Positions 1,743 through 50,072 of a DNA stretch of 64,000 nt are shown here, piece by piece. Numbering within the stretch: position 1 is the stretch's first letter; each line of letters begins with the position of its first letter. Made by a program: the position numbers and the translations under genes. The notes beneath the pieces are model-generated. The model was not told the origin of the DNA. It did no database searches and worked only from the letters and a program-made list of their open reading frames with translations. Source of the DNA: Prorocentrum cordatum (taxonomy: Eukaryota; Sar; Dinophyceae; Prorocentrales; Prorocentraceae); NCBI GenBank assembly GCA_963575745.1, contig CAUYUJ010006557.1, positions 855,001-919,000 on the forward strand, read 5' to 3'.

Positions 1743-3312
1743 GTCCCGCTGAAGCTTTAGGAACACACCAGATTTCACGCTTGTCCCGCTTTGGTGCATC
1801 AAGAACCCATATCTTTTCACGCTTGTCCCGCTCTGACGCGTTAGCAAACCATGTGTGTTCACAATTGTCCCTCTCTGAAGCGTTGGGACCCCATGCGTTT
1901 TCACGCTTGTCCCGCCTTGGGGCGCTCGGAACATACGTGTTTTCACGTTTACCCCGCTCCCGGGCGTTAGAAACATGTGCGTGTAACGCTTGTTCCGATT
2001 TGGGGCGTTATGAAGCCACGTGTTGTCACGCTTGTCCCGCTCTGGACCGTTAGAAACCTAAGTGTTTTCCCGCGTACCTAAGTGTTCTCACGCGTGCCAT
2101 GCTCTGGGGCGTTAGGCACCCACGTGTTGTCACGCTTGTCCCGATCTGGAGCGTTAAGAACCCATGTGTTTCCATCCACGTGGTCTGACGCTTGTCCCGC
2201 CCTGGGGCGTCATAAATCCATGCGTGTTCACGCTTGTCCCGCCTCGGGGCGTCAAAGAATCACGTGTTGTCATACTTTTCCAAACAAACGTGGTCTCACG
2301 CTGGTCTCGCCTTGGAACGTTCGGAACCCACGTGGTGTCCCGCTCACGTGGTTTCACGCTTGTCCCCATTTTGGCGCGTTAGCAACAAACGTGTGTTCAC
2401 GCTTGTCCCGCTCTGGGGCGTTCGGAACATATGCGTTGTCATGCTGTCCCGCGCTGAGGCGATTGGGACCCACGCGTGTTTGCGCTATCTCTGTGGGGCG
2501 CTCGGAATCCACGCCTTTTCACGCTTGTCCCGCTGTGGGGCGCTGGGGCGTTAGAAACCAACATGGTCTCACGCGTGTCCCGCTCTGGGGCGTTCAGAAC
2601 CCACGTGTTGTCACGGTTGTCCCGCTCTGGACACCCAGCCGCGCGTTGTCAAGCTTGTCCCACTCTGGGGCGTTAGGGACCCACGTGTTTTCACGCTTGT
2701 CCCGCCCTGGGGCGTCAAGGGACCATGCGTGTTCACGCTTGTCCCACTCCGGGACCGTTAGAAACCCATGTGGCGCGTCAGCAACATACGTGTTTTCACG
2801 CTTGTCCCGCTCTGGGGCGCTGGAAACCATATGTTTTCACGCTTGTCCCGCTCTGGGTCGCTGGGAACCCACATGTTTTTCCGCTGTCCCGCTCTGGGGA
2901 GTTAGGAAGCATGTGTTTTCACGCTTGTCCCGCCCTGACGAATCAGGAGCCCATTTGTTTTCGCGATTGCCCCGCTCTGGGGCGTCAGGAACCCATCTGT
3001 TTTCACGCTTGTCCCGCTGTGGGGAGCTAGGGAAACATGCGTTTTCAAGATTGTCCCGCTCTGGGGCGTTAGGAACCCACGTGTGTTCACACTGCTCCCG
3101 CCCTGGAACGCTGTAAACCAATATGATCTCAGGATTGTCTTGCCCTGTCGCGTTAGGAACCCGCATGTTTTCACTCGTGTTCCGCTCTGGGGCCGTCAGG
3201 AACCATCTGTTTCCCGCTCTGGGGTGTTAGAACCCATGCGTTGTCACGTCTGCCATGCTCTTGGGCGCTAGACATCCACGTGCTTTCAAACTTGTCCCGC
3301 TCTGAAGCGTTC
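1743..3312 (+). repeat. 42-bp tandem array, M6 family in reverse orientation
   Basis: About 35 diverged units of 42 bp with core cacgcttgtcccgctctggg followed by gcgttaggaacccacgtg. The reverse complement of this unit is the M6 unit found at 43.5, 46.3 and 54.7 kb (cgccccagagcg, then gcgtgaaaacacgtggg), so the same minisatellite occurs in both orientations in the window. Since 42 is a multiple of three, every frame carries a 14-residue periodic peptide; the 344-residue open frame at 2082-3116 is best explained that way. Each good unit contains the palindrome CACGTG. Confidence 0.85.
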
Positions 3313-11697: not shown

Positions 11698-11794
11698 TGA
11701 TTCGATAGACAAAGTGACGAGTCAACAGCACGGTACTTGCGAGCGCTGATCTCGCGCCACAGCACCCTACGGTTGCGAAGTTCCCCCTGGGAGA

Positions 11795-11897
11795 CCGGCG
11801 GCTGGCGGTCTCCCAGGAGAAGCCGGCCTTGAAGCCAACTTCCTGGGAGACCGGAACTTTCCTGGGAGACCGGAGTTTTCCTGGGAGACCGGAGATT
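11795..11897 (-). repeat. Minisatellite of about 18 bp in a probable 5' UTR
   Basis: Five to six diverged units, read on the minus strand as tccggtctcccaggaaaact. They lie between the spliced-leader relict and the minus-strand gene at 10549-11697. A related array with the same downstream flank (gcaaccgtaggg) is at 23604-23720 in the opposite orientation. Confidence 0.7.
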
Positions 11898-11914
11898 TTG
11901 AGCCAAAATGGCTA
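11898..11914 (-). other. Relict dinoflagellate spliced-leader sequence
   Basis: On the minus strand these 17 bases read tagccattttggctcaa, identical to positions 4-20 of the 22-base dinoflagellate spliced leader (ccgtagccattttggctcaag). Spliced leaders are joined to mRNA 5' ends by trans-splicing, so a copy in genomic DNA upstream of a gene marks an mRNA that was reverse transcribed and reinserted. A chance 17-base match in 64 kb is very unlikely. The terminal G is missing (caaaatc follows) and the first three bases differ, and there is no SL RNA gene body next to it. Confidence 0.75.
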
Positions 11915-11927
11915 TATACGCAAGAAG

Positions 11928-12214
11928 GAAGGAGGAGGAGGAGGAGGAGGAGGAGGAGGAGGAGGACGAGGAGGAGGAGGAGGAGGAGGATCAGGAGGAG
12001 GAGGATCAGGGGGAGGAGGATCAGGGGAGGAGGAGGGCGAGGAGGAGAAGGAAAAGGAGGAGGAGGAGGAGGAGGAGGAGGAGGAGAGAGAAGAAGGAGG
12101 AGGATGAGGAGGACGAGGAGGAGGAGGACGAGGACGGGGAGGAGGTGCAGGAGGAGGGGGAGGAGAGAGAGAGGAGACGGAGAAGGAGGAGGGAGGAGGA
12201 GCGGAAGCGTTTTT
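11928..12214 (+). repeat. (GGA)n-type purine microsatellite
   Basis: Imperfect gga/gag trinucleotides with occasional tca and cga interruptions. All frames stay open as poly-Glu/Arg/Gly, which is an artefact. Confidence 0.9.
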
Positions 12215-12311
12215 TGTATGTATGTATGTATGCATGCATGCATGCATGCATGCATGCATGTATGTATGATGTATACATATGTATATGTATATGTATATGT
12301 ATGTGCATTTG

Positions 12312-12345
<34 letters not shown>

Positions 12346-12500
12346 TGTATGTATACATGCATGTATGTATGTATGTATGCATGTATGCATGTATGTATGT
12401 ATGTATGTATGCATGCATGCATGCATGCATGCATGTATGTATTTATGTATGTATGTGTAGGTATATATATATATAGACACATACATGTATATATATGTTG
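12215..12500 (+). repeat. Tetranucleotide (TGTA/TGCA)n microsatellite
   Basis: Runs of tgta and tgca repeats with tatatg interruptions, alternating purine-pyrimidine throughout. Frames read as Tyr/Met/Cys or His/Thr/Tyr repeats on the two strands and are not genes. Confidence 0.92.
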
Positions 12501-12514
12501 AAAAACCTCATTAT

Positions 12515-12752
12515 AAGGAGGAGGACGAGGAAGAGGAAGAGGAAGGAGGAGGAGGAGGAAAGCTGCCGCAGGGAGAAAGAGGAAGAAGACCCCCTTGGCG
12601 CCGTCGCGGCGGCGGCGTCGGCAGGCGACGGCGGCGGAGGCGGAAGGAGGAGGAGGAGCAGCAGCAGCAGCAACAGCAGGAGGAGGAGGAGGAAAAGTAG
12701 CCGAGGAGGAACAGGTAGTGCAGGAGGAGGAGAAGGAGGAGGAGGCACGATT
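12515..12752 (+). repeat. (GGA)n and (CAG)n microsatellite
   Basis: gga/gag repeats with a GC-rich patch at 12595-12640 and a short cag run at 12658-12680. It lies just downstream of the methyltransferase stop codon. Confidence 0.85.
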
Positions 12753-12820
12753 GCCCACGACAACAGACGACGCCAGCCGCGGCGCCGCGGTTCTCGTCGT
12801 GCGCCGCCACGCGCAGACCA

Positions 12821-14562
12821 CTAATCACCAGCATTCGACGGCTTCAGGCCCGAAAGCAGGGCCGCCATCACCAAACCTAATTGATTCAAAGCCGTGTCAT
12901 CGCTCAGGAGCCTCACTTCGCTCTCCTTCTCCACGCGCGTGCGAACGTTCAAATCATAGCCCATCAAACTGCACCGCTCCTCTGGAGTCAGAAACCTGCC
13001 GTAGTTGTGTCCTCGGGGTTGAATGCCAAGGAGTCACAAGTTCGGCATGTCGTGGCTTATCTCGACCGCGTCGTCGAAGTCAAACTGGGAAGCAGAGAAT
13101 GACGAGGATGAGGAGGAGAAGGAGGAGGAGGACGAGGAGGAGGAGGAGGAGGAGGAGAAGAAGGAGGAGGAGGAGGAGGAGGGGGAAGAGGGGGAGGAGG
13201 AGAAGGAGGAGGAGGAGGAGGAGGGAGGAGGAGGAGGAGGAAGAGCCCCCCCCCCCCCCCCCCCCCCCCCCTCCCCGCCGCAGCGAAGACGGCCGCTGGG
13301 CCGCTCGCGCCTCCTCCTCCTCCTCCTCCTCCTCCTCCTCCTCCCCCTCCTCTTCCTCCTCTTCGTTCCTCCTCTTCCTCCTCCTCCTCTTCCTTCTCCT
13401 CCTCTTCCATCTCGCCGTGCTCTCCCCGTGCCTCGGTCAGTTCCCCAGGCGCGCGGTCCAGGTCGAACGCGCGCGCCGTGTCGGGGGGGATCCTCTCTTC
13501 GACGGTCTCCAGGGCGGCCTTGTGCATCTGCAGGTTCTTCTCCTTTCGGGGGGTTTCCCTCTTTCGAGGGAACGCGCGATGAGGTTGCGATTAAGTTTCG
13601 ATGAGGTTTCGATGAGGCTGCGACGTCGCAGCCTCGAAACCTCATCGAATCCCGATCGCAACTTCATCTCTCGCGCGTTCCCCCCTGTGGGCCCCTTGAG
13701 GCCTGGAACTCCGTGAGCTCTTGCCGACGGGGGTTCATCCAGTGTGGAGCTTCGCTCTCGTTCAGGAACTCACGCATGCGAGGTTTCTCGATCGTGACCT
13801 CGCTCGCCCTGGTGAGGGGCCCCTGCGTCTCGAAGAACTCGTCGCATCGCCCGCGCACGTGCAGCCTCGGCAGGGGGGGCGAGGAGGAAGAGGAGGAAGG
13901 GGGCTGGGAGAAAGGACATCGGAGAAGGCGACGAGGAGGATATGTTTGATTGCAAGCCTCTGCCGCCGTAGCGGTACCCCACACTGAGCAGCGCTCACTT
14001 TGTCGCACCACAGAGACCAGCCACCTGCAACGTTGTCTGTCAGCCACCGCATGATCTCCTCGGGAGGGGGATCGGAGTCATCTTGAAACTCGCACAGCTC
14101 TGGTTTGAGCTCGATCACGAAAGCGCAGAAATTTGAAATCTTTTTTGTTGCGAACTTGATGTTGGCCAAGACCATGCAGAGTGCACAGCAGTGCGGGTCG
14201 TCCCAATCGATTGTTCCTGCAGAGTCAGGGCATGGCGGGGTGCAGATTGCGACGTCGATGTCGTGAAGCTGGTCGGGACGGTAACTGCAAATGTTCCCAC
14301 TTGTGGGGCCTATGAAGACACCATCTGAACTGCCGTGTTCGAATATCGCCTGGTTCTCAACATGTTTATCAATATCGAATGACATCACTTCCACTTCCAT
14401 GTTAAGTTTCTTGAGTACCATCGGCCCAGTGCACAAACCACAGCATGGCAGCCAGACCTTCAGGATCTCGCCTCTGGATTCTGGCTTGAGAATGTCCATT
14501 GCAGCCGTCTCCCAATCATCATCTACTGGGGTATCTGGTACCCTACGGCGTGGCGGTGCCAT
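12821..14562 (-). CDS. Cytosine-C5 DNA methyltransferase-like gene, four exons
   Basis: Exon 1 (14562 to about 13947, ATG start) carries VWLPCCGLCTGP (motif I, cofactor site), SFDID (motif II), CTPPCPDS (motif IV; catalytic Cys at residue 111), CAFVIELKPE (motif VI area) and QCGVPLRRQR (motif VIII). Exon 2 (13865 to about 13695) reads RGRCDEFFETQGPL and EAPHWMNPRRQEL, probable target-recognition region. Exon 3 (about 13537-13400) contains ALETVEERIPPDTARAFDL. Exon 4 (13084-12821, after a polypyrimidine-cag acceptor) has GRFLTPEERCSLMGY (motif IX-like) and LNQLGLVMAALL (degenerate motif X). The total of about 390 residues fits a catalytic domain without regulatory domains. A TGA at 13034-13036 interrupts exon 4, so the copy may be inactive. 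Splice sites are my inference. It lies 240 bases downstream of the transposase-like gene, same strand. Confidence 0.72.
13100..13425 (+). repeat. Microsatellite filling the third methyltransferase intron
   Basis: gga/gag repeats (13100-13240), a pure C run (about 13247-13271) and a cct/tcc run (13310-13410). The strand asymmetry switches from purine-rich to pyrimidine-rich at the C run. On the gene's strand the block ends in a pyrimidine tract directly before the exon 4 acceptor. Confidence 0.85.
13571..13679. repeat. Near-perfect 109-base inverted repeat (hairpin)
   Basis: Left arm aacgcgcgatgaggttgcg... and right arm ...atctctcgcgcgtt pair over about 54 bases each, meeting at the centre gctgcgacgtcgcagc (13617-13632). 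A few mismatches and a 4-base gap interrupt the arms. The arms contain gatgaggtt units, the same motif as the array at 17645-17935. It lies in the inferred second intron of the methyltransferase gene. Confidence 0.85.
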
Positions 14563-14689
14563 GTCCGTTTCCAGGCTCGAGCCAGTGCGCTCTTACAGGA
14601 GGAGCCCCTGGACATGTCACTGGCCTCGATGCGGGCCTGGTTTACTGCGCGTTCGGTTTGCATTAGAGGTCGGGGGAGGCGAGGGGTGG

Positions 14690-14778
14690 GAGGAAGAAAG
14701 AAAGAGGAGAAGGGGGAGGAGAAGGAGGAAGAGGGGACGAATAAGGAGGAGAAGGATGAGGAGGAGGGCAACGAGATG
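14690..14778 (+). repeat. (GGA)n microsatellite between transposase-like and methyltransferase genes
   Basis: Imperfect gga/gag repeats lying at and just beyond the 3' end of the transposase-like frame and upstream of the methyltransferase ATG. No other feature was seen in 14563-14803. Confidence 0.8.
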
Positions 14779-14803
14779 AGAACGAGGACGCCCCCGATTT
14801 TCA

Positions 14804-15958
14804 TCAACATGCCCAGGCAGAGTTCGGTTCAACGTAAGGCAGCAAACGAACTCTGGTGAAAATACCATGCTCCCACCTTCCATGGGATGCTGCCGAACCT
14901 ATGCCAGCTAAAACGCGGTTAAGCCCCTTCGTCCAGGAAACAATGGAAAAAAACGTGGATTCCCTGTTCTCTTCACATCCAGTGTGAGATGTATAAACAA
15001 GTGAGTCTTAGGCTTCAGGGCTGAATCGTCGACCACCCTCATCATGTTGATAAAACGAACTGCGCATTCCAGCAAGCGGCGTCGGCGATCAGGCTGTATA
15101 ACCCTTGGGGAATTCCTCACAATAGTAAGCCACTCCTGCAATGCAGCGCCTGCCACGGAAAGTTCTTCACTAAATGGGAATCTCTCAGCAAACCGATCGC
15201 GCAGAGAAAGCGCATGCGGTAATAACGAGCCAACTTCGGCAGCTTTTAGCTTTACCTCCCGAGACCAATCGGAGCCCATCATTTTTGGCGTGAGTTTCCG
15301 GAGCTGGTTTTCACGAGGAGTCTTTGCAACGTCTTTGTACCACCGCTGAATGTCCAGTTCAATGCAACGAATGCTCATTTCAATCACAGCAGCTCTGGGG
15401 CCCGAAACGTTCCAAACCTCACCATCAATAGTATTCCACAGCACACACGATAAGAATCGCAAAACTACGCCAAGGTAAACTGCGTGGAGGGCATCGATTT
15501 TCAGAACTCGTTCTGGGCTGCACCCTTGCATTTCGAACAATGGATTTATTTTGAGGACGGCGTCCAATCTACGCTTGGAAGAGCCAGCAACTTCGAAACG
15601 CTCCCTCCAGAACACAATCTCGATCGGCAAAGCAGCCGTGCTGAACTGTGCGACGTCAGCTAGGGTGTCTGACGGTTCTAACCTGTCCCCCTTGCGTAAA
15701 CCCATATCATCGATGTCGTTGTGCAGGATCATTCCCGCGGCTTGTCCACGCTTATCGGAATCGAGCCCACCAAAATGTATAACCCTGTCTCTTTTTCCTG
15801 GTGTGTCAACAAGAACCCGTATCTCGCATTTTTTGCATTCAGAATCATAGTAGTCATCACCCAAACATCCCCATGTGTGCCCGTGCGGCGACACGTCGTC
15901 TAAATCAAAGCCGCTCGCTTCCAAGATAGAATCACTAGGCGTGTTTCGGTGTTCCCGT

Positions 15959-15991
<33 letters not shown>

Positions 15992-16023
15992 ATCGTATTC
16001 GTGATACTAGCAGTAGCAGTAGC

Positions 16024-16055
<32 letters not shown>

Positions 16056-16107
16056 CAGTAGTAGCAGTAGTAGTCGTAGTAGTAGCAGTAGTAGCAGTAG
16101 CAGTAGC

Positions 16108-16157
<50 letters not shown>

Positions 16158-16159
16158 TC

Positions 16160-16198
<39 letters not shown>

Positions 16199-17458
16199 AT
16201 GGTAGTAGTAGCAGTAGTAACGTCCCACCCTTTCCCCCACCCCCTGCGGGCTATCGGAGTTGCGCCAGCTTGAGAAAAGCGATGCTCTGTTGGATAAACA
16301 AAACATACAAGGCCTGTTGATTGATTGCCAAGTCGTTAGCCCGAAGGTTGCACAGTGCTCGCTCCAATCACAGCGAACATCTATCACAACATATCTTGCT
16401 TTCATTCGCATAGGCATGTCAGCGTAAGAACTGCCGTCTGGCCACTTCGAGCGGTCCCATCGTTCCTGTGGCCTCAAACCATGGGCTGCTCCTTCCAAAG
16501 ACCACTTCAGAAAACCGAAGAACGGCCTGAGAGAACACCATCCTCGACACCCGCAGTGACACAACTGTGATTTTTTAAATGCCCCAATGAAATGACGACG
16601 CCCAGAACAAAGGTTATGTATGGTGAAATTGGTTAGACTGTCTTGGGAACCAGGGGATATTGACTTTGTGCACCGTACTCCATCGGCATACAAGGCGACG
16701 GGGTAGCATGGACGTGGGTCGCGTGGAATATGCCTCAGGGGATGCTCCTGAAAATCTGTTTGCCAAGTTTCAGCCTCCAAATACTTCGGCACATCACCAT
16801 CTGCGTCGTTTTCGACTTCGGAATCTAGACATTCATGTGGAGGGGCAAACGCAATAGATTGCTCCTGTGGAAACGCTTACATCTTTTGGTGTGTGTCCTC
16901 CTCCTCCCTCCATCTTCATCTTCCAATCCTTCGACCCCTCTCTCCTACCCTCGTAGTGTCTTCCTATCTAGTGGAATTCTTAGGCCCTACTCAATCCTGC
17001 CGCATGCTATCGACGAACAACGGCAGCTTGAGGTCAACCAATTCTACATCAGAGTTCTGCGGCAGAACGCGGTCCAGATGTTGCTGAAATGATCCCGATT
17101 GATTCTCTGGATTGAAAGCGAGTTTCTTCAAACCAAGTCCCTGGGCCCCTGCTCGAATAGCATGCCATGCAATCGTGCAAAGTGACCTTGCACTCAAATC
17201 ACCATGTGCATATTGCATAAGAAGGAACTCTTCCAGCTCATCACCGTGTTGCTCTTGTTCGTAGGTGCCAGTCTCTGTCGGATTCCGCCTCTCCCACGAA
17301 GCAGCGCTGGCTCCCCCCAGCTCCCAGCTATGGATCCGAACGTGGTCTTCTCGGTAGCGTTTTTTCGAGGTCATAAAATCGCTCGAGCACTCATGGCTGG
17401 ACGGATCGAACAAATAAAGGTTGTCACGAGGTTGAAACCTCTCCCGCAATCAGTTCTA
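14804..17458 (-). pseudogene. Transposase-like gene (DDE type?), three exons, frameshifted
   Basis: Exon 1 (about 17458-16991) reads HGDLSARSLCTIAWHAIRAG and AFNPENQSGSFQQHLDRVL. Exon 2 (16864 to about 16225, after ttccacag) has PVALYADGVR, CHCGCRGWCS and SKWPDGSSYADMPMR. Exon 3 (about 15932-14804, after cgcctag) has KGDRLEPSD, KIDALHAVYLGV and KPKTHLFIHL. FLDEG then LNRVLAGIGSAA appear after two one-base shifts, in an A7 run (14947-14953) and a C4 run (14924-14927). The spacing of Asp (YADG), Asp (IDALH) and Glu (FLDEG) recalls Tnp2/CMC-like transposases, but I cannot confirm the family. It is a multicopy dinoflagellate type by my recollection. The block is less GC-rich than its neighbours. 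Confidence 0.55.
15957..16221 (+). repeat. (TAG)n microsatellite inside an inferred intron
   Basis: About 85 tag/cag triplets, mostly perfect. It separates the second and third exons of the transposase-like gene; protein similarity pattern stops on one side and resumes on the other. Frames through it read poly-Ser, poly-Val or poly-Tyr and are artefacts. Confidence 0.92.
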
Positions 17459-17519
17459 AACTGTTTCAAAACGATACTTCGATCACAGGTTCTGGCGAAA
17501 CCGTCCCAGATCAGTTAAA

Positions 17520-17935
17520 CACCTGTCGGGAACCAGGCAAAACGCGCCGAAAACCGGACAAACCGCCTCAAAACCGGACAAGCACGCAAAAAACCGGCCC
17601 ACAACTAGGCAACATTCACAACTCCGTCAAATAAATAGGAGAAATCCGGCCTCAACGCAACCTCATCGCAACCTCATCGCAACCTCATCGCAACCTCATC
17701 GCAGCCTCATCGGGATGAACATCATCGCACCCTCATCGCATCCTCATCACATGTGCGATGAGGTTGCGATGAGGTTGCGATGAGGCCTCGTCGCATCCTC
17801 ATCGCATCCTCATCGATACTGTGATGAGGTTGCGATGAGGCCTCATCGCATCCTCATCGGTTCCTCATCGCATCCTCATCGTATCCTCATCGCACGTGTA
17901 ATGAGGCTGCGACGAGGGTACGCTGAGGTTGGATC
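17520..17935. repeat. Short repeats aaaccggacaa, then 11-bp cgcaacctcat array with inversions
   Basis: 17535-17610 holds several copies of aaaaccggac. From 17645 an 11-bp unit cgcaacctcat repeats, then flips to gatgaggttgc and back at least twice (17754-17790, 17822-17845), making head-to-head blocks that can fold as hairpins. It lies between the 3' end of the 18.2 kb exon and the 5' end of the transposase-like gene. The same gatgaggttgc motif builds the hairpin at 13571-13679. Confidence 0.8.
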
Positions 17936-18211
17936 AAGGCGTATCAGTAGCTCTGTGTGGTGTATTTGTCATAAGTGTGCGCCCTCTGGGGGCACGCGTT
18001 TCAATATTCGATTCAATATTCTCGAAAACACCAGGAATCTTCAGAATCTGAAGTCCAAAAACTGAAACCACATGAACTCTCGTTACACCACATCCTTTCA
18101 ATCCCCATCGCAAGCTCGCTTGCGTCACGAAATATGTAAGTTCGCCAGCCCCCTGCATCAGAAACCTGTTGCTGCCGACGAACGTGTAGCTCTGCTCGTA
18201 GTGCCCCAAGC

Positions 18212-19460
18212 TCAGGACTGCATCAGCTCCTTCATCTTGCGAATGCGAAGCACCTGGTTGGCGACGTCATCCAAGTTCCCCTTGTGGCTGTCGACGCAGT
18301 GCTGGGAATCGACCTCGCAGGTCTCGAACATCTTGATGTACTCCTTCATGCCGAAGAGAATGACCTTCTGCAGCACCTCGTCATCGTCGATGATCTGCTG
18401 GGCGTGGTTGAAAGACTTGCGCAAGCTCTCTCCGAACTCTGCATTCGCAGCCCACGTCCACTCATCGTGCTTCTTGTCGATCTTGGTGATGATGTTTCTG
18501 GCGGACGTGAGGCTGTTCATGTCCTTGCCCAGGAGCTCCTCCATCTGCTTGTAGATGCTCTTCTCCTTTGCGTTCTGGTTGCGCTTGCCCTGCTTGGTGT
18601 CCCTGCCCTTGCCCTTGCTGCCCTTGGGGTTGCTCTTGCCGCCCTTGGTGTTGCCCTGCTTGCCCCTGCCGCCCTTGGTGGTGCCCTTGCATGGCTGCTT
18701 CAGGTGATCGCTGCTGCTGCCGCTGCAACCAGCAGCGCGTGGTACTGGTGCATGTTCTGCCGGCGGTGGCGTCACTGGTGCTGCAACCCGTCCTTTGCTT
18801 GGCGGCGTCACCTCTTCCTGCGGCTCCTCGATCCTGGCTCGCTGTTGCGGCGGCTCCTCTGCTGGTTCCTCGCGGTCGCGATCGCGACGGTTGCAACCTC
18901 CTCTGTTGAACTCCTCTGTGTGGGTGTCCCAGTTCGTGATCTGCTCCTGGCGGTCTTCCACCATCATGTAGCGGAATAGCAGTCGTCCACTTTGTTGCGA
19001 GACTTGCACCCACGGAGGTCCGCGCCTGATGCAATGCTCGGCGATGCGCATGCAGCCCTTGATCACTGATGGGTAGCGTCCACCTTCCTTCTGGATCATC
19101 GTGTCGATGTTGATGAGCGGATACTTTTTGCTGGCTGTCTCCTGGTATCTGTCTACTTTCTGCCTCCACTTCTGAAGGATCTGGTACTGCTCCTCGGCCC
19201 ACTCTCTGCGCCACTCAGCTTTCTTTGATGGTGCCAACTTGTCGTAGGCATTGCGTTTATCCTCTGCCCAGTGCTTCTTCATATACCTCGAAAACCTGCT
19301 CCCCGCTGTGCCATTAGCTGGAAAGTGAAAGCCGTTGGTCGATAACCAATCAAGCAGGTCGTCGCGTGGCCAATCAGGAGGCTTCCCGACGTCGGTGGTC
19401 TCATCAAACTCCTCGGTTGTCTGGCCGATGCCCTCGAACAATTTCACCAGCTCCTCGGGC
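18212..19460 (-). CDS. Dinoflagellate-type protein exon with HMG-box-like segment
   Basis: A clean frame of over 400 codons ends at TGA 18212. The N-terminal part reads WPEELVKLFEGIGQTTEEF and RFSRYMKKHWAEDKRNAYD, then LAPSKKAEWRREWAEEQYQI, which resembles the helical spacing of an HMG box, though weakly. The middle has HCIRRGPPWVQVSQQSGRL. A low-complexity Lys/Gly linker (18.7-18.55 kb) leads to a C-terminal helical part with MEELLGKDMNSLTSARNII and EFGESLRKSFNHAQQI. I take it as the last exon of a gene. The upstream edge is a pyrimidine tract after a microsatellite, so the start codon lies elsewhere. Function unknown. Confidence 0.6.
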
Positions 19461-19494
19461 CAGGAAAAAAACGACGAGAGAATGACGACATGAG

Positions 19495-19708
19495 AGGGGG
19501 AGGAGGATGAGGAGGAGGAGGAGGAGGAGGATGAGGAGGAGGAGGAAGGGGACGAAGAGGGGGACGAGGGAACGGTGGAGGAGCGGAGAACTACGAATCT
19601 TCACGAGCAGGAGGAGAAGGATGAGAAGGACTAAACAGAGTTGGGGGAGTCAGAGTGTGAGCAGGGAATGCCGGCGCGGAGGGGGATGAGGAAGAGGAGG
19701 AAGATAAC

Positions 19709-19744
<36 letters not shown>

Positions 19745-19812
19745 CGAGAACGTGAGAGAGAGAGAGAAGAGAGAGAGAGAGCGAGGAGGAGGAGGAAGAG
19801 GAGTGCAAGTGA
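19495..19812 (+). repeat. (GGA)n then (GA)n microsatellites
   Basis: gga/gat repeats at 19495-19560, then ga dinucleotide runs at 19700-19790. They lie in the presumed intron upstream of the 18.2-19.46 kb exon. Confidence 0.88.
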
Positions 19813-19867
19813 GAAACGAGAAGGAGAAAGATGCGGATGAGCAGCAGCAGCAGCAGCGACATCAATC

Positions 19868-20304
19868 CTGCTCGAGATCTCGACCGACATTGGTTCCAGC
19901 ACCAGCTGCTGTCGCGAGGCCCCCGGTCTCCTTGCGAAACGCCGAGATCAGCGGGTTGACCGAGGAGAAGGAGGAGGATAAGGAGGATGACCAGGAATGA
20001 ATGAGAGCGAAGGATCGAGGGCCTCATGCTCGGCTGCGGGCTTGGGCTCGGGCTCGGCGGGATCGTCTTGGGCAGCGGGGATCTCCTCGCCAGCGGCGGC
20101 GCCCTTGGCCTCGGGCGCGGGGGTCTCTATCATGGCCTCGGGCACGGGGGTCTCGATCATGGCCTCGGGCACGGGGGTCTCCTCCTTGGCCTCGGGCACG
20201 GGGGTCTCCTCCTTGGCCTCGGGCACGGTGGACTCGAGGGGCCTGCGCGCCGCGGCAAGCTCGGCGCACTCCCCCGCGAGAACCTCGGCGTCGTCGTCGG
20301 GCAC
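19868..20304 (-). CDS. Probable coding segment with VPEAKEETP repeats
   Basis: The frame from 20304 (MPDDDAEVLAGECAELAAAR) contains four 30-base tandem units encoding PEAKEETP/PEAMIETP, then AAGEEIPAAQDDPAEPEPKP, and meets a gga microsatellite at about 19985. After it, in another frame, 19958-19868 reads AFRKETGGLATAAGAGTN and stops. Acidic, repetitive and hypothetical. It may be an exon of the same gene as 18212-19460, judging only by strand and proximity. Confidence 0.35.
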
Positions 20305-20569
20305 AGTGACTGCCTATGTATGTCTCTGGAGACGAGTTCCCCCATCGGCGTCGAAGTCTGGGCCATTCCCAAATGTGGGGATCGCCCGCCTTCGACTGGT
20401 CTTACAGGAGGGGGCTGATTATATGTAAGCGCCTCGCTATCGGCGGCGTCATCTGCCCCCGCGTGGCACCCCGTGCGGCCGCCGACGATGGCGCTGTACT
20501 AGGAAAGGAAATACACACATAGGTTCTATTGCCTCTCCCACCCCCTCGCGGGGGGGGGAGAGGGGGGAG

Positions 20570-20784
20570 GCGCTGCCCCTCGAGGGTTTCAGAGGACCCA
20601 CCAGGTCCTGCAGCCCGAGATGTTTTTCCAGCTGGATCATTTTCTCCGCCAGCTTCATCGGCCCGCGGCGGCCGACGGGACGAGGGCAAGGGGTCCCAGC
20701 TAGCTCGAGTAGAAATACATTGCGGAATTTAGTTGGTAGCATTGGCATGTATTCGGGCGGTTCCTGGGGCACGTTTCTAGGCAT
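20570..20784 (-). CDS. Possible exon of unknown gene
   Basis: An ATG frame reads MPRNVPQEPPEYMPMLPTKF, RNVFLLELAGTPCPRPVG and MKLAEKMIQLEKHLGLQDL before entering C-rich DNA. It has a coding look (amphipathic helix, mixed residues) but no recognised domain. Upstream, 20960-20840 in another frame (MVLDNETPEGGATTPPSTG) may be a further piece. Confidence 0.3.
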
Positions 20785-21039
20785 ATGATGATTTCAAGGT
20801 TTTTGGTCGGCCGATGGCGGGAACAGACGTCTCGGAACTGGAATCCTAGTCCATCCAGCTATCGGGGGGCGGCTGGACGCAGCGGCGCTGCACGGGCGGC
20901 GAAAACGAACGACCAGTGCTCGGTGGCGTGGTCGCCCCGCCCTCAGGAGTCTCGTTGTCGAGCACCATGTTCTCCTCCAGAGAGGAGGAGGAGGAGGGGG
21001 ATCTATTGGAATTCGGAAGTGTTTTCTGTAAAACATCTC

Positions 21040-21312
21040 CGAATTCAAAGGAGGAGAAAGAGGAGGAGGAGGAGGAGGAGGGGGAGGAGGAGGAGGAGGA
21101 GGAGGAGGAGGAGAAAAAGGAGGACGAGGAAACGGAAGGAGGAGGAGGAGGAGGAGGAGGAGGAGGAGTTCCTAGGAGGTCTCAGTCCTCCGCGTCCTGC
21201 CACTCGAGGTTCCTCCTCCTCCTCCTCCTCCTCCTCCTCTTCCCTCTCCTCATCCTCCTCTCCCTCCCTCCTCCTCTGCTCCTCATCCTCCTCTTTCTCA
21301 TCTTATCTGCCT
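21040..21312 (+). repeat. (GGA)n then (CCT)n microsatellite
   Basis: Purine-rich gga repeats (21040-21170) switch to pyrimidine-rich cct repeats (21210-21310) around a short unique centre, the same purine-to-pyrimidine arrangement as in 13100-13425. Confidence 0.88.
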
Positions 21313-21315
21313 CCT

Positions 21316-22306
21316 CATTCTCGGCTCAAGTATCGGTCCTTCTGGATCGCGATCTTGTGGACTGGCATACCTGCTGACGCCTCAGGCTCTGGCTCATCAG
21401 CAGCAGGCTCTGGTTCGTCAGCAGCAGGCTCTGGTTCGTCAGCAGCAGCAGCAGGCCGCTTGCAAGCTGCTGATGGCTTCTTGCTCGGGCCATCAGGTGG
21501 TGTAGCAGCTGCTGGCCGCTTGAGAACCGGCGGCGCACGGTCATCATCATCATCATCACGTGGACGCGCGACTGCGGTCTTCAAGAAGTTGGCCTTGATC
21601 ATCTTCAGCTGCGCATCGTCCTCAGCATCGACTATGCCGTTCTCCAGCGGTGTCCCCATGTGCTCTATCATCCATTGCTTGCAGAGCTCGGCGTTGTCGA
21701 AGAACTTGGCGTTGATCTGGATGACGTGGGTGCCCTCGATGCTCAGCGTGCAGAGGTGGTCTCTGGGTTTGCCTTTCGGCGTGTCCCAGCGGAACTTCAT
21801 CTGCAACTGCAAGCCCTGCGGGGTCTCGGAACTCCAGCTCGACGGGTGCGACAAGCCTGCAGCTTTGGCCTTAGCTTTCGGCGTTGGGGCTCTGGCGTTG
21901 GTGCTGGTGCGTCGGGTGCGTCGGCGTGTAACTGATCCCACTTCTGAACGTGACAGTGCGCGCGCGCGTGCTCGGTGCCGTCGGCCCACACCCCAATCAT
22001 ACTGTGGAACGGCTTGGCGTTCGGAGGCGGCTTCATGTGGCTGGCCATCTCGACAGCTCCTCTCTCGCCTTTGGTGCGGTAAGCCATCCTGAGCTCGCCG
22101 TCCCACGCGTAGATGTAGTCATCGTCGTCGGCCGAGCTCGCACGACGCGCGGGCTGATCGCGCGCGCGTTGCGACCCTGCGGCCGACAAGCTATCCTGCG
22201 AATCCTCATCGATGGCCGTGGCATCCAAGGAGGCCTTGTCCTCGGGCGAGAGGCGAGTGAAGCCCAAGTTCGCGAACCAAGAGGCCCACGTTCTGCGCCT
22301 GGCGAT
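21316..22306 (-). CDS. Dinoflagellate-type protein exon with KRPAAA motifs, one frameshift
   Basis: From a cag acceptor near 22307 the frame reads RRTWASWFANLGFTRLSPED, then DDDDYIYAWDGELRMAYRT and MIGVWADGTEHARAHCHVQ. Near 21895 a one-base shift moves the frame to KAKAKAAGLSHPSSW, QLQMKFRWDTPKGKPRDHL and FFDNAELCKQWMIEHMG. The tail has VLKRPAAATPPDG, ACKRPAAA and three tandem AADEPEP units. KRPAAA-type basic motifs are frequent in dinoflagellate proteins. It is flanked by trinucleotide microsatellites on both sides. Function unknown. Confidence 0.5.
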
Positions 22307-22309
22307 CCT

Positions 22310-22611
22310 CCTCCTCCTCCTCCTTCTTCTCCTCTCCTCTCCTCTCCTCCTCCTCCTCCTCCTCCTCCTCCTCATCATCATCATCATCACCATCATTATC
22401 ATCAACATCATCATCATGATCATCATCATCATCGTCACCATCATCATCGTCATCATCATCATCATCATCATCTCTTCTCTTCCTCATTCTTCTCCTCCTA
22501 GCCTTCTCCTCCTCCACCTCTTCCTTCCTTCCTTCCTTCCTTCCTCCTCCTCTTCCTCCTTCTCCTCCTCCTCCTCTTCCTCCTCCTCCTCCTCCTCCCT
22601 TATCGCCTCTT
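22310..22611 (+). repeat. (CCT)n and (CAT)n microsatellites
   Basis: cct/tcc repeats (22310-22370), cat repeats (22372-22475), then cct/ttcc repeats (22480-22605). It separates two coding-like segments on the minus strand. Confidence 0.9.
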
Positions 22612-22794
22612 CTCTCTGCGAATGTGGTGGCCGACCGCGAAGATGCGAAGCATCATCGTGTCCACCCAGTCGTCGAGCTCCGCACTCGACAAGTGCAGCA
22701 CGTTGTCGACGGCAACACTCACCAGGGCGGCCCTCAAGGGCGGCTTCGAAAGCAACAGCAAGTTGTTGCACTTCTCGAGGTCCAGCAGAAAAGC
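22612..22794 (-). CDS. Probable exon of unknown dinoflagellate gene
   Basis: After a ctgcag acceptor (22795-22796) the frame reads AFLLDLEKCNNLLLLSKPPL, then AVDNVLHLSSAELDDWVDTM and MLRIFAVGHHIRREKRR before a TAA. Mixed, amphipathic composition supports coding. It lies between a ct dinucleotide tract and a cct tract. It could join the 21316-22306 exon. Confidence 0.45.
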
Positions 22795-22811
22795 CTGCAG
22801 AGCAGGGGGGT

Positions 22812-22813
22812 CA

Positions 22814-22878
<65 letters not shown>

Positions 22879-22898
22879 TCTCTTTCTCTCTCCTCACT
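22812..22898 (+). repeat. (CT)n microsatellite
   Basis: About 30 perfect ct dinucleotides followed by ttctct variants, within a presumed intron. Confidence 0.95.
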
Positions 22899-22974
22899 CC
22901 CTCCTCTCCTCTCTGACTTCCTTCCTTCTGCCTTCATCCTGGGACAGGGGTCTGAATACTTTATATACCCCGAA

Positions 22975-23188
22975 GAACCCTGTATTTCTTGATGGCATCC
23001 GAGTTCATCTGCGCCGACGGTTTCGAGGGGTACTGGAAGAAATTGGGTTCCGTGGCGTGCTTCTTGAATACATTCTCCAGCATCGACTGATCTTTACATT
23101 TCGGAGTGCATCTGCTCCCTGGCGGCGGACTCGGGCTGAAAGTCATGTCGCTGGCGACGGGGCGTCTTGAGCCTCCATGCCTGCGCAC
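22975..23188 (-). CDS. Possible exon of unknown gene
   Basis: The frame reads KCKDQSMLENVFKKHATEP, then NFFQYPSKPSAQMNSDAIKK and YRVLRG, followed by gtatataaag, which could be a 5' splice site. It lies just downstream (minus strand) of the (TAG)n block at 23198-23460. No family recognised. Confidence 0.35.
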
Positions 23189-23196
23189 CGCCCACC

Positions 23197-23197
<1 letters not shown>

Positions 23198-23247
<50 letters not shown>

Positions 23248-23271
23248 CTACTACGTAGTAGTAGTAGTAGT

Positions 23272-23321
<50 letters not shown>

Positions 23322-23405
23322 CTGTAGTAGTAGTAGTAGTAGTAGCTACGTAGTAGTAGTAGAAGTAGTAGTAGTAGTAGTAGTAGAAGTAGTAGTAGTA
23401 GTAGC

Positions 23406-23458
<53 letters not shown>

Positions 23459-23575
23459 TTTTGGAACACCATTCCCAAAACAATGCTTGCCGACAGAAGG
23501 AGGAGGAGGAGCTGAGGAGGCGAGAAGGAGGAGGAGGAGGAGGAGGAGGAGGAGGAGGATTGGTGATGATGTTAC
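23198..23575 (+). repeat. (TAG)n microsatellite with inverted centre, then (GGA)n
   Basis: tag triplets with one inversion (gtagtactactacgtag at 23238-23260) and cag interruptions to 23460, then gga repeats at 23500-23560. Poly-Ser, poly-Val and poly-Thr frames are artefacts. Confidence 0.92.
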
Positions 23576-23603
23576 GATGATGTATGATGATGTATATGCA
23601 GCG

Positions 23604-23720
23604 CAACGCTGGGAAGCCGGAGTTTTCCTGGGATGCCGGCGGTTTCCTGGGAGACCGGAGCCAGCGGCATCCCGCTGGGATGCCGGCGGGCAGCGGTCTC
23701 CCGCGGACGCCGGCGCAACC
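23604..23720 (+). repeat. Minisatellite related to 11795-11897, opposite orientation
   Basis: Units of the form ttttcctgggatgccggcgg and tttcctgggagaccgg. They are followed at 23722 by gcaaccgtaggg, the flank also found beside the copy at 11.8 kb. It sits at the 3' end of LINE-2. Confidence 0.65.
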
Positions 23721-23879
23721 GTAGGGCAAGGCGCTCTCCGAGCAGAAGGCAGCGCCACAAACGCCCCCCCCACAAGGTGTCTGGCACGCGAAGTCGAAGA
23801 CCCCGGCGTCGACGAAGGCAGGAGGCCCCCGACCAGGCCGACAAAAGATCACCGTGCAGCGTCCGCCATCGATGCCGCT

Positions 23880-40114: not shown

Positions 40115-41045
40115 AAGCATGGCAATTGTTCAAGACACTGAAATTGGGCGACGGGCAATTGTAATGCTCAAGGTGGCGATGATGATGCACAGTGCCAGGG
40201 GCTGTGCTGTTCTTTGCTGTGATGAACTGGGACGCGCCATGCGACGTTGAAGTGATGTGCTCATTTGCATTGTGGATCAGGTCGACCGTGGCGTCAGGAT
40301 CCCAATTAAACTAATCTGGATCCTAAACTTGAACTGCCTGAACGCACGACTCAGATATGACCACAATCGAAACGCGCGGGGCGCTCGACTAGCTCAAGTT
40401 CAAAATCCGAGTCAGTTCGGAAGCAGGACAAACCGAAAATAGGCGAATCTGAACAGTTCCGTGCTTTGTTATGTCGTGGGTCAAATCTTACCTGGCATCC
40501 GAACCCTGACAGAACTGAACTGGGCCTCAAGCTCGAGCTGCCTGGGCACATGTCTCGCCCAAATATGATTGCAATCGAGACCTTCTGAAAGGAATACGTT
40601 CCGCAACAGGGCGGACTGTTAAGGGCGAATCCAAACAGACGCGAAATGCATAGAAGAGGGGGCGGACCGAACCTCCGACGACAACGGTGGCGGACGGCGA
40701 CGACCGCGACCGCGGTTCCAGCTCGGGGCCACTATTTTACATATGTTAGGTATCCACCCCGATGGCCTGGACACGTGAAACACATGGTTCCAGCTCGGGG
40801 GCACCATGTTAGATTCTGCACGGGGAAATCTGGAGAATCACCAGCCGCAGAAACTGTGACAGGTTATTACACACCTGGCGTTGATGTATTGATTGTATTT
40901 GGCTCTTGCGGAGCCCCGCGCAGGGGGCAACCAGACCGGGGCAACCACGTTAGATACCCCTGTTGTGTGGCCTTGAAACGTAAAACACGTATCTCCAGCT
41001 CGGGGCCACCATGTTAGATACCCCCCTGGGTGGCCGGGAGATGTA
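40115..41045 (+). repeat. Composite repeat locus 3 (M1-M3-M4-M5-M4)
   Basis: M1 (degenerate start, gggcgacgggcaattg at 40145), M3 (ggatcctaaacttgaactgc at 40318, second copy near 40525), M4 from about 40725, M5 at 40835-40940 (caggttattacacacctggc) and M4 again to the start of the next M1. M2 is nearly absent. Confidence 0.75.
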
Positions 41046-41800
41046 AGAACATGATCGACCCACGGACCCGGAAAAGGGATTCAGACCTGCGAGGCATGGG
41101 AACGTTTTCAAGCCCATCAACTGGGCGATGGGCAATGGCAATGCTGAAGATATCAATGAGGATGATCTGTTGTCAAGGGCTGTGTTGCGCTGCTCTACGC
41201 TGTGCCGCGCCGCATACTGACGTGCCAGGGACGCGCCACGGGACGCGCCAATGGAAATGCCAAGGGACGCGCCAGGGATATGCCGCGTTGAACTGTGCCG
41301 TGCGCTATTGCATGATGGGTCAAACCGTCCTTGGCGTCAGAATCCTGACCAAATTGATTTGGACCTTGAGCTCGAGCTGTCTGAACGCGTAGAAAGCTAG
41401 TTGCGAAACGCGCGGGGCGCTCGACCAGCTCGAGCTCAAGATCCGACTTTGTTCCGCAGCCCTCGCTCGAGACACCCCAAATAGAGCCAGACGCCCACAT
41501 GTTGGATATCTCCCCGTGTAGCCTAGACGCGTGAAGACGTAGTTCCAGCTCGGGAAAACCATGTTAGGTACCTCCCTGGGCGGCCTGGACACGTGAAAAC
41601 ACATGCTTCCAGCTCGGGGCAACCATGTTCGATACCGCCCTGGGTAGCCTGGACACATGAAAGCAAATGGTTCCTTAGATGTCCACCAGGGTGGCCTGGA
41701 CGCGTGAAAACACGTGGCACCAACTCGGGGCCACCATGATCGACACCCCAATTGGAAATCTGGGAAATCACCAGCCGAAGAAAAAAATCCGCCGGCCCCA
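41046..41800 (+). repeat. Composite repeat locus 4 (M1-M2-M3-M4)
   Basis: M1 starts at 41051 (gatcgacccacggacccgga); short M2 at 41220-41280; M3 at 41335-41480; four 64-bp M4 units at 41500-41740. It then truncates: the M5 start (atcaccagccgaagaaa) is joined directly to an M8-like end (aatccgccggcccc), as if M6-M7 had been deleted. Confidence 0.8.
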
Positions 41801-41989
41801 TTGCGGGGCCATCAGGCTGCGAAGAGTAGGCTTGCAGCTCCCTGTGCCAGTTGCAGTTTCCAGTTTCCACTCTTACAATGCTGCTTTCGCTTCCTTACTG
41901 TAAATTGTTGCTGAACGCGCGGGGGGGGAAGCCGAAAAGCGTCCTGGCTAGCGCCCCCGAATCGCGTTGTCTGAATTACCGGGGGGTCG

Positions 41990-42450
41990 TGGGCCACGGA
42001 AAAATACATGAGATGCGCGTCCCCGGAATCAGAATCTCTAGTAAATTACGCCATAGTCGCGTCCCCGAAGCCATACACCATCGTAAATCATTCAATATTC
42101 GCGTCCTCGAAGCCATAACCCCTTGTATTAAACAATGTTCGCGTCCCCGACGGCGTACACCCTTGCCAAGTACACAAGATTCGCAAAGTACACAAGATTC
42201 GCGCCCCCGATGCCATACACCCTCGTGAATTATGGAATATTCGCGCCGCCGAAGCCATGCACCCTCGTAAAGTATACAGTGTTTGCGTCCCCAGGGCCAT
42301 CAAACATCGCAACTTATACTATAATGGCGTCCACGAGGCCAGAAGTCCGAGTAAAATATCTAAGATTCGAGTCCCCGAAGCCGTAAACCTCTTGCAAATT
42401 ACGCAATATTTGCGCCCCCGAGGCCATAAACCCGTGTACATTCCCCAATC
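41990..42450 (+). repeat. 42-bp tandem array, diverged M10 family
   Basis: About ten units of the form cgtaaattacgcaatattcg followed by cgtccccgaagccataca. They align with M10 (57640-58360) at cgtaaattacg and gcgtcc.cg. A small further group lies at 42900-43040. Confidence 0.8.
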
Positions 42451-42514
42451 AGTGCTTGCACTGAAGGGGTCCTAGCGGAAGTTGAAACATTTGGCGAAAC
42501 TTTCCCGCCGATTT

Positions 42515-42860
42515 TGGTAGCAGGCTGGGTTCCAGGGTTCCTGATACCGGGTTCCCGGGTTCCCGGGTTCCAAGGTTTCCTGGTTCTGGGTTCCTGGTTC
42601 CGGGTTCTTGGGTTCCTGGGCGACCTCCTTATCCACCCCTCTGTGGATCTCATTTTCGATACCAGAGTCGGTCTCCTGATCGATCTCACAATCGATCTCA
42701 CTGTAGATCGCACGAGCGATCTCACGTTCGATCTCCCCATCGACCTCACTGAATCGACTTCACTACTTGTCTCACGATCGACCATACTATCGTCCTAAAT
42801 TTCAATGCAACTATCGATCTCACCATCGATCTCACAATCAATCTCAATGTCCACAACACT
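42515..42860 (+). repeat. Minisatellites: ggttcccg units, then cgatctcac units
   Basis: 42520-42625 has repeated ggttcc(cgg) words. 42640-42850 has about 17-20 bp units around cgatctcac. No gene in 41800-43160. Confidence 0.7.
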
Positions 42861-43167
42861 AAACTTATAACAGTCCACTGATTGGGTCTGAGCTCTGGTT
42901 AATCATTATACAATGTTTGCGTCCTCGAGGCCACACACCCTCGTGAATCTCACAAGATTCGCGTCCCCAACGCCATAAGCCATCGTAACTTACACGAGAT
43001 TCGCGCCACCGAAGCCACAAACCATCGTAAATTCATATTGGCCCTCGCGAGAAGTCCCGACACTGCTTCACGTCAGCGCCCAGACATCCCAACACAGCTC
43101 TGGCAAGTCCCGTTCTAAGAAAGGGGGGCTGGCGGCATGGGGGGCGAAGCCCTTACGGATAAGGTTA

Positions 43168-43338
43168 GGTCGGGCCTGTCCCCGTGCAGGCCGATTTTGG
43201 ACGACAAATAAAAAACAGTCCAAACATACTCCGCAAATGCTCAAAAAACGAAAAAAAAAAAAAAAAAAAAAAACATGGTCCCCTGATAACTGTTTAACTA
43301 TTTTTGAACATCCCTCCTGTAGGGGGACAGGCCCGACT
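43168..43338. mobile_element. MITE family A, copy 2
   Basis: Left end gtcgggcctgtccccgtgca and right end cctgtagggggacaggcccgac are inverted repeats. The interior ttttggacgacaaataaa and ctatttttgaacatccctcc matches copy 1 at 29680-29831. It contains a 24-base A run (about 43250-43274), a possible expansion of an A-rich stretch in copy 1. Confidence 0.8.
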
Positions 43339-43344
43339 TACGGA

Positions 43345-44950
43345 GAAGGTTGTTACTCGCCTGGCGTCGCTGAATTGATTATGTCTGGCTCGTGTGGGCC
43401 CCCACGCTGGGGCCACCCAGACGACCACATGTTGGATACCCCCCGCTGGTGGTCCGCATACGTAAGCAAGACACGCGTTCTGGGTGGGCGCAGCGTGGGT
43501 CCCTGTCGCCCCAGAGCGCAGCACGCGTAAAACCACGTGGGCTCCTTTCGCCCCAGAACGGAGCAAGCTCGCCCCAGAGCGGAACAAGAGTGAACACACG
43601 TGGGTACCTTTCGTCCCAGTGCGGAACAAACGTGAAAACACGTGGGCGCCTTTCGCCGTAGAGCACAACAAGCGTGAAGTTACATGGGTCCATTTCCGCC
43701 CCGGAGAGCAGCAAGCGTGAAAACATGTAGGTCCCTTTCTCCCCAGGATGCAGAAAGCGTGCAAACACCTGGGTTCCCCTCCAGGAAGCCCCGGTGGGCC
43801 TCCGCAGAGCCCCAATGATTATGCATCTAGTGCAGATTCGCTGGGTTTGCTCTGACTTTGTGCCCCCCCTCACATTTGGGAGGGGGGACCGCCCCTGGAT
43901 GGCCAGGACGCGTGACAACACGTGGGTCCCTTGCGGCCCAGGGTGGAATAAAAATGAAATCGCGCTGGTCCCCTTCGCTCAAGAGCGCAGCAAACGCGAC
44001 ACTACGTGGGCCCTTTTCGCCCCAGAGCGGAACAAGCGTGAAAACACGTGGGCCCCTTTCGCCCCAGAGCGCAGCAAGCGTGAACTAGCATGGGTCCCTT
44101 TCGCCCCGGAGCGCAGCAAGCGTGAAAACAGATGGGCTCCTTTCGTCCCAAAGCGGAGACAGCGTCAGAGAGTGATTTCACGCTTGCTCCGCCCTGAGGC
44201 GAAAGGAACCCACGTGTTGTCATTCTTGCTCTGCCCTGAGGCGAAGGGGACCCACGTGATGTCATGCTTGCCGCGCCCTGAGGCGAAAGGGACCCATTTC
44301 ACGCTTGTTCCGCACTGAAGCGAAAAGGACTGGGGCGAAAGGGACGGCCTCTCCACTTCTCCAAAACGAGTATTTCCCTTGAGACATCCTCAACATTTCT
44401 GCGCGCAGGACTCGCCATCCTCTAGAAGAGACGCGGAAAGTAAAACATTCCAGGTTTGGTTGTAAATATTCAAAGTCCCCAGACGAGCATTGACCTAAGT
44501 AACCCCAAATAAGGAGTGAGGCCCCTTTTTCCCGTAAGTAAACTTCGATTTCCCATGGGAAAAGCTCACGAACACCTGAGGCTAACTGTAAAACAATCAA
44601 GGAGCCCCTCCCCAACGAAAAGGGTTCCTCCTTGAGCGCCCCGACTGTATCGCGGATCCTGCAGGAAACGCTTTGCAGCCATTTTTCTGCTACGGAAAAC
44701 GATGGCCAGCGGACCTGGTCATTCATCGCGGATCCAAGAAGGGGGGCGCACGTCTCTCGAGCGGGCACGCGCGGAAAACATGCTTTGAACACAGGATGGT
44801 CTTGAACCTCGTCGTTTACCGCAAATGAGTCCGCCGGCCCATCCCCAACATGAGAGGTCAATAAAATCCACCCCCACAATAACCACCCCGACACGCGTTT
44901 AGTAAACGCCAATTGTCCGGTCTGAGTGGTTTTTCTTCCCCTGAAACATG
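43345..44950 (+). repeat. Composite repeat locus 5 (M5-M6-M7-M6-M8)
   Basis: M5 43345-43480, 42-bp M6 units 43490-43760, M7 at about 43765-43940 (aatgattatgcatctagtgc), more M6 to about 44160, an inverted M6 group to 44330, and M8 from gggacggcctctccacttct (44341) to about 44950. M6 frames encode 14-residue periodic peptides (PERSKRENTWVPFA type) that degrade with indels; I do not treat them as genes. Confidence 0.85.
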
Positions 44951-44984
44951 GCACCAGGGACATGTTACCATACCAAAACAGAAC

Positions 44985-47545: not shown

Positions 47546-47612
47546 AAATGGCGGCAAATCCGAGTTTCAGCAAACTAGAGTCTTACGTTTCCCCGGGACT
47601 AGGTTCCCCGAC

Positions 47613-48191: not shown

Positions 48192-48314
48192 GTGGGGATC
48201 TGTTCCCTACCTAGGCTCTGCCTAGAAGGGTTCTTACTCTCTTAGCTTCAAGGAGCCGGGCAGTGCTACACGCCCCGGGCGGTTCCCCCGGTCCCCTGGG
48301 AGCGGTTCCCCCCA

Positions 48315-49840: not shown

Positions 49841-49905
49841 TGCCAGGATGCCGCACTCCAGACCCCTATCCTCCTGGGCGTGGCCTGGGCGTGGCCTGGG
49901 CGATG

Positions 49906-50012: not shown

Positions 50013-50072
50013 GCTTATACTGACAGGAGGAAAAACAAAACCGGGAGGAGGACGAGGAAGACGAAGCGAAGC

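Follow-up and report, generated by a model that had tools for sequence, protein, structure and literature searches.

A family of cut-and-paste DNA transposons in Prorocentrum cordatum that carries a C5-methyltransferase gene beside its transposase gene

Results

A mobile unit with two genes in fixed order

A stretch of 64,000 nucleotides from the dinoflagellate Prorocentrum cordatum (contig CAUYUJ010006557.1, here C6557, positions 855001-919000; hereafter the window) contains, with a probability that we put at about 0.9, a dead member of a family of cut-and-paste DNA transposons, about 12 kb in length, that carries both a transposase gene and a gene for a C5-cytosine methyltransferase. The two genes lie in a single mobile unit bounded by terminal inverted repeats (TIRs) starting CCCT and flanked by 2-bp target duplications, with the transposase gene followed by the methyltransferase gene in fixed order, and subfamilies that have diverged strongly share the pair. 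The copy is regarded as dead because both of its genes are broken, while the subfamily to which it belongs is a recently mobile one.

The element occupies 11,962 bp and is read on the minus strand (Table 1). An earlier reading made from the sequence alone had described, in the interval 12821-17458, minus-strand frame sets for a transposase-like protein and a C5-methyltransferase, and had suggested either a cut-and-paste element with a methyltransferase of its own or a methyltransferase gene captured next to such an element. Both frame sets are where that reading put them, but the element extends well past the interval, and the first of the two suggestions is borne out by TIRs and 2-bp duplications that enclose both genes in two subfamilies. 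The 13-bp TIRs of the window element are perfect. In pairwise comparison with the window, homology to close copies ends at 11761-11765 in four of four cases, and the right end, at 23726, was located by comparing copies; an earlier TIR scan, which covered right ends up to 20600, returned nothing above control levels except a GATGAGG minisatellite.

The genome searched comprises 4,128,499,153 bases in 21,875 contigs, and the close copies found in it share about 98% identity when gapped columns are left aside. Three copies in the window subfamily, the window's included, are complete, and all three have TIRs, a 2-bp target duplication and both genes. The other two, of 12,501 bp (contig C19450) and 11,989 bp (C16000), have both ends as in the window; for the copies on C17647 and C14146 the 5' end is absent from the stretch examined. 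Aligned with the window element, the C19450 copy shows a self-overlap close to the 3' end, as though part of the sequence there had been doubled.

A second subfamily, picked for its approximately 28% methyltransferase identity and extended at two loci (C15099 and C336), encodes a transposase 38% identical and a methyltransferase 28% identical to those of the window. Its elements are 12 kb long, with an 11-bp TIR, CCCTGAGGCTC, 2-bp duplications, and again the transposase gene followed by the methyltransferase gene. Between the elements at the two loci, identity is 99.4% in 12,026 aligned columns, and their ends are sharp. Termini are CCCT..AGGG in both subfamilies. The search for TIRs and target duplications bounding both genes, which the sequence-only reading had named as a check, thus found them in five complete copies, all five with a 2-bp duplication (one copy fits 3 bp too); when boundaries were moved by up to 5 bases as a control, a 2-bp duplication appeared in 34 of 600 placings.

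Co-occurrence of the two genes across the genome

Two separate genome-wide searches were made, one with the transposase and one with the methyltransferase, and only the best candidates were scored, so that all counts are lower bounds. The 116 transposase matches merged to 115 genes, and the 86 methyltransferase matches to 81. For 42 of the 115 transposase genes a methyltransferase match follows on the same strand, no more than 6 kb downstream, with 337 to 3,698 bases separating the matched stretches, while not one of the 115 has the methyltransferase upstream or on the opposite strand. The recurrent neighbourhood that had been proposed as a further check is therefore present, and in one arrangement only. 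Counted from the methyltransferase side, at 30 loci (of the 86 matches) that represent 29 copies, the window's included, a transposase lies upstream on the same strand at 27 loci (26 copies); at one of the loci, L037, only the tail of the transposase fell in the first stretch, with the remainder in the next.

No upstream transposase was found at any of eight control C5-methyltransferase loci, and no member of the transposase family lies within 8 kb of any of 48 places matching PF00145, the first 48 of 129 being used as a control. The 129 PF00145 matches in the genome are in part clustered on single contigs (C16350, C14772); since none of the 48 tested is near a transposase of this family, other methyltransferase expansions evidently exist.

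Identity of the methyltransferase

The methyltransferase is of the C5 type. Its main exon in the window matched no Pfam family when used alone and found no homologue in a single-sequence search, Pfam and NCBIfam scans of the open reading frames (ORFs) of the window returned stray weak matches only, and a scan of viral contigs with the methyltransferase found nothing. With tblastn at E of 10 or better, the exon matched five phage records (two phages, one of them in four records) and three plasmid records; C5 methyltransferases account for all five of the phage records, at E of about 1, and for two of the three plasmid records. The last exon, searched against phages in the same manner, gave eight weak matches, none to a C5 enzyme. 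Set against a profile built from the C5 methyltransferases of ten phage records, the main exon reached an hhalign probability of 73 (E 3e-5, 150 columns), colinear from motif I to motif VIII, while the maximum for 34 controls (30 shuffled versions, the reversed sequence and three further ORFs of the window) was 7.7.

Relatives within the genome complete the assignment. The 86 matches consist of the window, five close copies (one in two pieces) and a remainder 23-38% identical. PF00145 was matched by nine of ten family ORFs, the exception being the close copy L022: nine diverged relatives tested score above the curated cut-off, and the window copy, like L022, has no match. The best match (9e-28) belongs to L035, from a branch without transposase, but L048, L037, L034 and L029, each with a transposase adjoining, match at 3e-20 to 7e-15. 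An alignment-based search returned 17 proteins at E of 0.01 or better, and PF00145 is found in all 17. Two of these, P0019 (3e-54) and P0020 (2e-29), are outside relatives on short contigs that scored far above the other 15. For a predicted model of the window exon (predicted local distance difference test score 74.5), the first three Foldseek matches are M.HhaI (best E 1e-7), with many other class I methyltransferases close; this result is partly circular, the input alignment having included C5 enzymes. The idea that the window methyltransferase is a near relative of other C5 enzymes of this genome was dropped, the best E by tblastn against eight of the 129 PF00145 loci being 0.75.

About 240 bases separate the end of the transposase gene from the methyltransferase Met, as first described. 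Motifs I, II, IV (PPC), VIII and residues resembling IX/X are likewise present, but that description needs correction at two places: motif VI is altered, reading IELK in place of ENV, with Glu kept and Asn and Val lost, and the last exon contains an in-frame TGA. There is no stop at that position in the four other close copies read.

The transposase

The window's transposase-like gene has three exons and a CGCRGWCS knuckle, as the sequence-only reading had it; the knuckle lies in the second exon. Of the Asp/Asp/Glu landmarks noted there, both Asp residues stand in exon 2, but around the last catalytic Glu two breaks interrupt the frame; the same region is in one frame in two of three other close copies read. 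The borders of intron 1 (16865-16996) are GA..AG, which has been described from dinoflagellates (PMC11453091).

The joined transposase found 18 database proteins (E 5e-74 to 8.3e-27, 25-32% identical); in eight cases the match covers more than 90% of the query. An alignment of 16 transposases shows both Asp residues invariant, C(2)C nearly so, and the CGC-GWC knuckle, DRLE and H..LG invariant or nearly invariant. Near the C-terminus, H(3)H together with [DG]ExxN occurs in seven of the 18 relatives, whereas P0013 has just the H(3)H and the rest are shorter or different; the layout of the family is D-D-C(2)C-H(3)H-E. Because these 18 relatives exist, and because the hhalign match of the methyltransferase stands above its controls, neither frame set can be put down to chance.

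When three transposase members were searched singly against Pfam, no transposase family came up, each yielding one stray match (best E 0.0054). Structure prediction supports a RAG1/Transib-like core that bears the two Asp, C(2)C, H(3)H and the Glu; the predicted fold resembles RAG1/Transib (PDB 6oep, 6pqx) over most of the core, with the same order of motifs, at 10-12% identity. A fold search of BFVD with the transposase gave no match at E of 0.001 or better, and scans of viral contigs with the transposase and with the transposase alignment found nothing. We take the spacing of the motifs to be similar to that in RAG1, and the CGCRGWC knuckle, the different TIR and the 2-bp target duplication presumably set the element apart from RAG1 and Transib.

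Alternative explanations

Several observations weigh against a two-gene transposon as the general state of this family. The 73 remaining transposase genes of the 115 lack a match to the window methyltransferase; at one of four such genes picked by hand (C13829) no methyltransferase lies within 2.5 kb of the transposase; and at three methyltransferase loci, L035, L036 and L041, there is no transposase within 1.5 kb, nor, for L035 and L036, in a further 4.5 kb (6 kb checked in all). The sequence-only reading had named two findings that would speak against it: transposase copies lacking the methyltransferase, or a methyltransferase that sits, with no transposase, in a gene order conserved in the host. 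The window methyltransferase is an insensitive query, however, so that 73 is not a true count of absences, and with diverse queries the other three of the four hand-picked genes do have a methyltransferase. A host gene order without transposase was not seen at the loci examined, but the three transposase-less loci make up one small subfamily. They lie on contigs C14605, C19540 and C14211, encode a longer methyltransferase ORF (569-594 amino acids), and form a branch that is possibly domesticated or differently mobile. Absences of this sort are what would be expected of a methyltransferase captured once or twice and carried along as a functionless passenger, an explanation that we consider improbable, since order and strand are common to subfamilies whose transposases and methyltransferases are no more than 28-38% identical, three of the four apparent negatives among them, and a useless passenger would decay over such divergence. 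Mere chance would be another way to bring the two genes together, for dinoflagellate genes are described as unidirectionally arranged (PMC11453091). We reject it as having next to no likelihood: TIRs and target duplications surround both genes, the arrangement counts are 42 to 0 to 0, and the eight control loci have no transposase.

The methyltransferase domain may serve chiefly as a DNA-binding subunit (for end recognition, for target choice or as an inhibitor), catalysis being ancestral and lost in at least one branch; judged from the residues encoded, we hold this possible but on balance doubtful. The catalytic cysteine is lost in six diverged members, which read PPS with IEAL (L028, L032), PPS with IETL (L038, L044, L050) or PPL with IETL (L046) where PPC and ENV are expected, while the R-x-R of motif VIII is present in twelve of twelve diverged members, these six included. 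The window group keeps PPC and has ELK in place of ENV. The Cys-less group has spread recently, because the nearly identical elements at L043 and L044, which belong to it, share 99.4% identity over 12 kb. Against this stand L029, L034, L035, L037, L042 and L048, which keep both PPC and ENV, so that part of the family retains the catalytic residues; moreover, the six Cys-less members resemble each other and may represent one single loss. Differences between close copies, counted by codon position, reveal no third-position excess, and hence no sign of coding constraint on either gene.

Discussion

A model for the element

For the cut-and-paste transposon preferred here, the clade that the transposase resembles suggests an enzyme that would cut at the TIRs and join to the target at a stagger of 2 bases. 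The methyltransferase would travel as an accessory gene and may act on methylation of the element's DNA, either at the subterminal repeats or on its own copies, with the result that the element could coexist with, hide in or resist host DNA methylation. For members in which PPC and ENV remain, we give roughly even odds that the methyltransferase affects methylation of the element's own DNA, the methyltransferases of dinoflagellate retrotransposons offering a precedent. In the Cys-less branch the protein might retain a DNA-binding or partner role only; the odds of such a putative role, suggested by the missing cysteine, we put somewhat below even. Equally tentative is a broader proposal, that these elements constitute a new superfamily of RAG1/Transib-like transposons with the C5-methyltransferase as core second gene, turned in at least one lineage into a non-catalytic DNA-binding partner of the transposase. 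If true, a RAG-like recombinase would be working together with a methyltransferase fold.

Relation to known systems

DNA-modifying cargo is already known from retrotransposons (methyltransferase) and from fungal DNA transposons (TET/JBP). The dinoflagellate retrotransposons SymbioLINE-Dnmt and SymbioDIRS-Dnmt3 carry a DNA methyltransferase (DNMT), and these enzymes can methylate CG de novo, according to PMC5890265. The likeness is a cytosine methyltransferase on a dinoflagellate mobile element; as described there, however, those are retrotransposons, whereas the present element encodes a DDE-type transposase and ends in TIRs flanked by 2-bp target duplications. In seven ORFs scanned, a subset of the frames, no reverse transcriptase domain was found. 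The same paper mentions DNA transposons with DNMT in marine viruses, a likeness by description only. The fungal TET/JBP elements are likewise cut-and-paste transposons with a cytosine-modification enzyme, but their cargo oxidises methylcytosine where the cargo here is a methyltransferase, and their termini are CA..TG rather than CCC..GGG. In Zymoseptoria tritici, a DNMT gene has been amplified to 23 copies, all inactivated, with amplification mediated by transposable elements cited (PMC6710886). There too a DNA methyltransferase gene has multiplied in a genome, but by one recent event, whereas here many diverged subfamilies keep the methyltransferase beside the transposase.

For the CMC/Transib/RAG1 clade (CMCT), target duplications of 2 to 5 bp and termini that are mostly 5'-CA..TG-3' have been described (PMC12730594). 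The element resembles this clade in the predicted fold of the transposase core and in a duplication within that range, but differs in its CCCT..AGGG termini; because these are not CA..TG, we do not file it under EnSpm/CACTA or Transib, and say only that it works like the CMCT clade.

Among the matches listed from the open-access literature, there is no TIR-bounded cut-and-paste eukaryotic element with a C5-methyltransferase. The present family is such an element, its methyltransferase kept across diverged subfamilies, and with it comes a further transposase lineage whose predicted fold is related to that of RAG1. As far as the encoded proteins indicate, these elements may bring their own DNA-marking enzyme along. 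With many copies at hand, both with and without the catalytic residues, whether an element gains by marking DNA becomes directly testable.

Other features of the window

Table 1. Features of the transposon in the window, with positions counted from the first base of the 64,000-nucleotide stretch.
Feature	Position	Strand	Remarks
Whole DNA transposon	11765..23726	-	Set by TIRs and end of homology between copies; read right to left; contains the genes for transposase and methyltransferase plus one or more other ORFs
Target duplication, left copy	11763..11764	.	2 bp; CA on +, TG on -
TIR, 3' end of element	11765..11777	+	CCCTACGGTTGCG on + strand; 13/13 inverted match with 23714-23726
Subterminal repeats	11785..11891	.	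Five TCCTGGGAGACCG repeats (at most 1 mismatch), one of them inverted relative to the other four
Methyltransferase last exon	12821..13075	-	Motif IX/X-like residues; matched in second subfamily too
Methyltransferase further exon (likely)	13450..13536	-	In four other copies, 83-90% identical
Methyltransferase middle exon (likely)	13685..13801	-	Unchanged in four other copies
C5-methyltransferase exon	13933..14562	-	Motifs I, II, IV (PPC), VI (altered), VIII; Met about 14562
Transposase exon 3	14804..15960	-	D.LH..LG, H(3)H, last Glu; start about 15960, stop near 14804
Transposase exon 2	16250..16864	-	Both catalytic Asp (D187, D292), CGCRGWC knuckle and C(2)C; 16250 approximate
Transposase exon 1	16997..17374	-	Met about 17374; aligned to 15 relatives
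ORF of 462 amino acids	18215..19600	-	Strand as other two genes; covered by homologous copies
TIR, 5' end of element	23714..23726	-	CCCTACGGTTGCG on - strand; identical 5' end in C19450 and C16000 copies
Target duplication, right copy	23727..23728	.	2 bp

The 462-amino-acid ORF has no convincing Pfam match and no match in the element of the second subfamily. A further subterminal TCCTGGGAGACCG repeat occurs at 23645, near the other end of the element from the five in Table 1. Minisatellites of GATGAGG type, in both orientations, are found at 17650-17897, between the 462-amino-acid ORF and the transposase gene, and at 13572-13646, in a methyltransferase intron. Elsewhere in the window, the regions 41000-59700 and 1743-3311 contain long internal direct and inverted repeats, approximately 65-89% identical.

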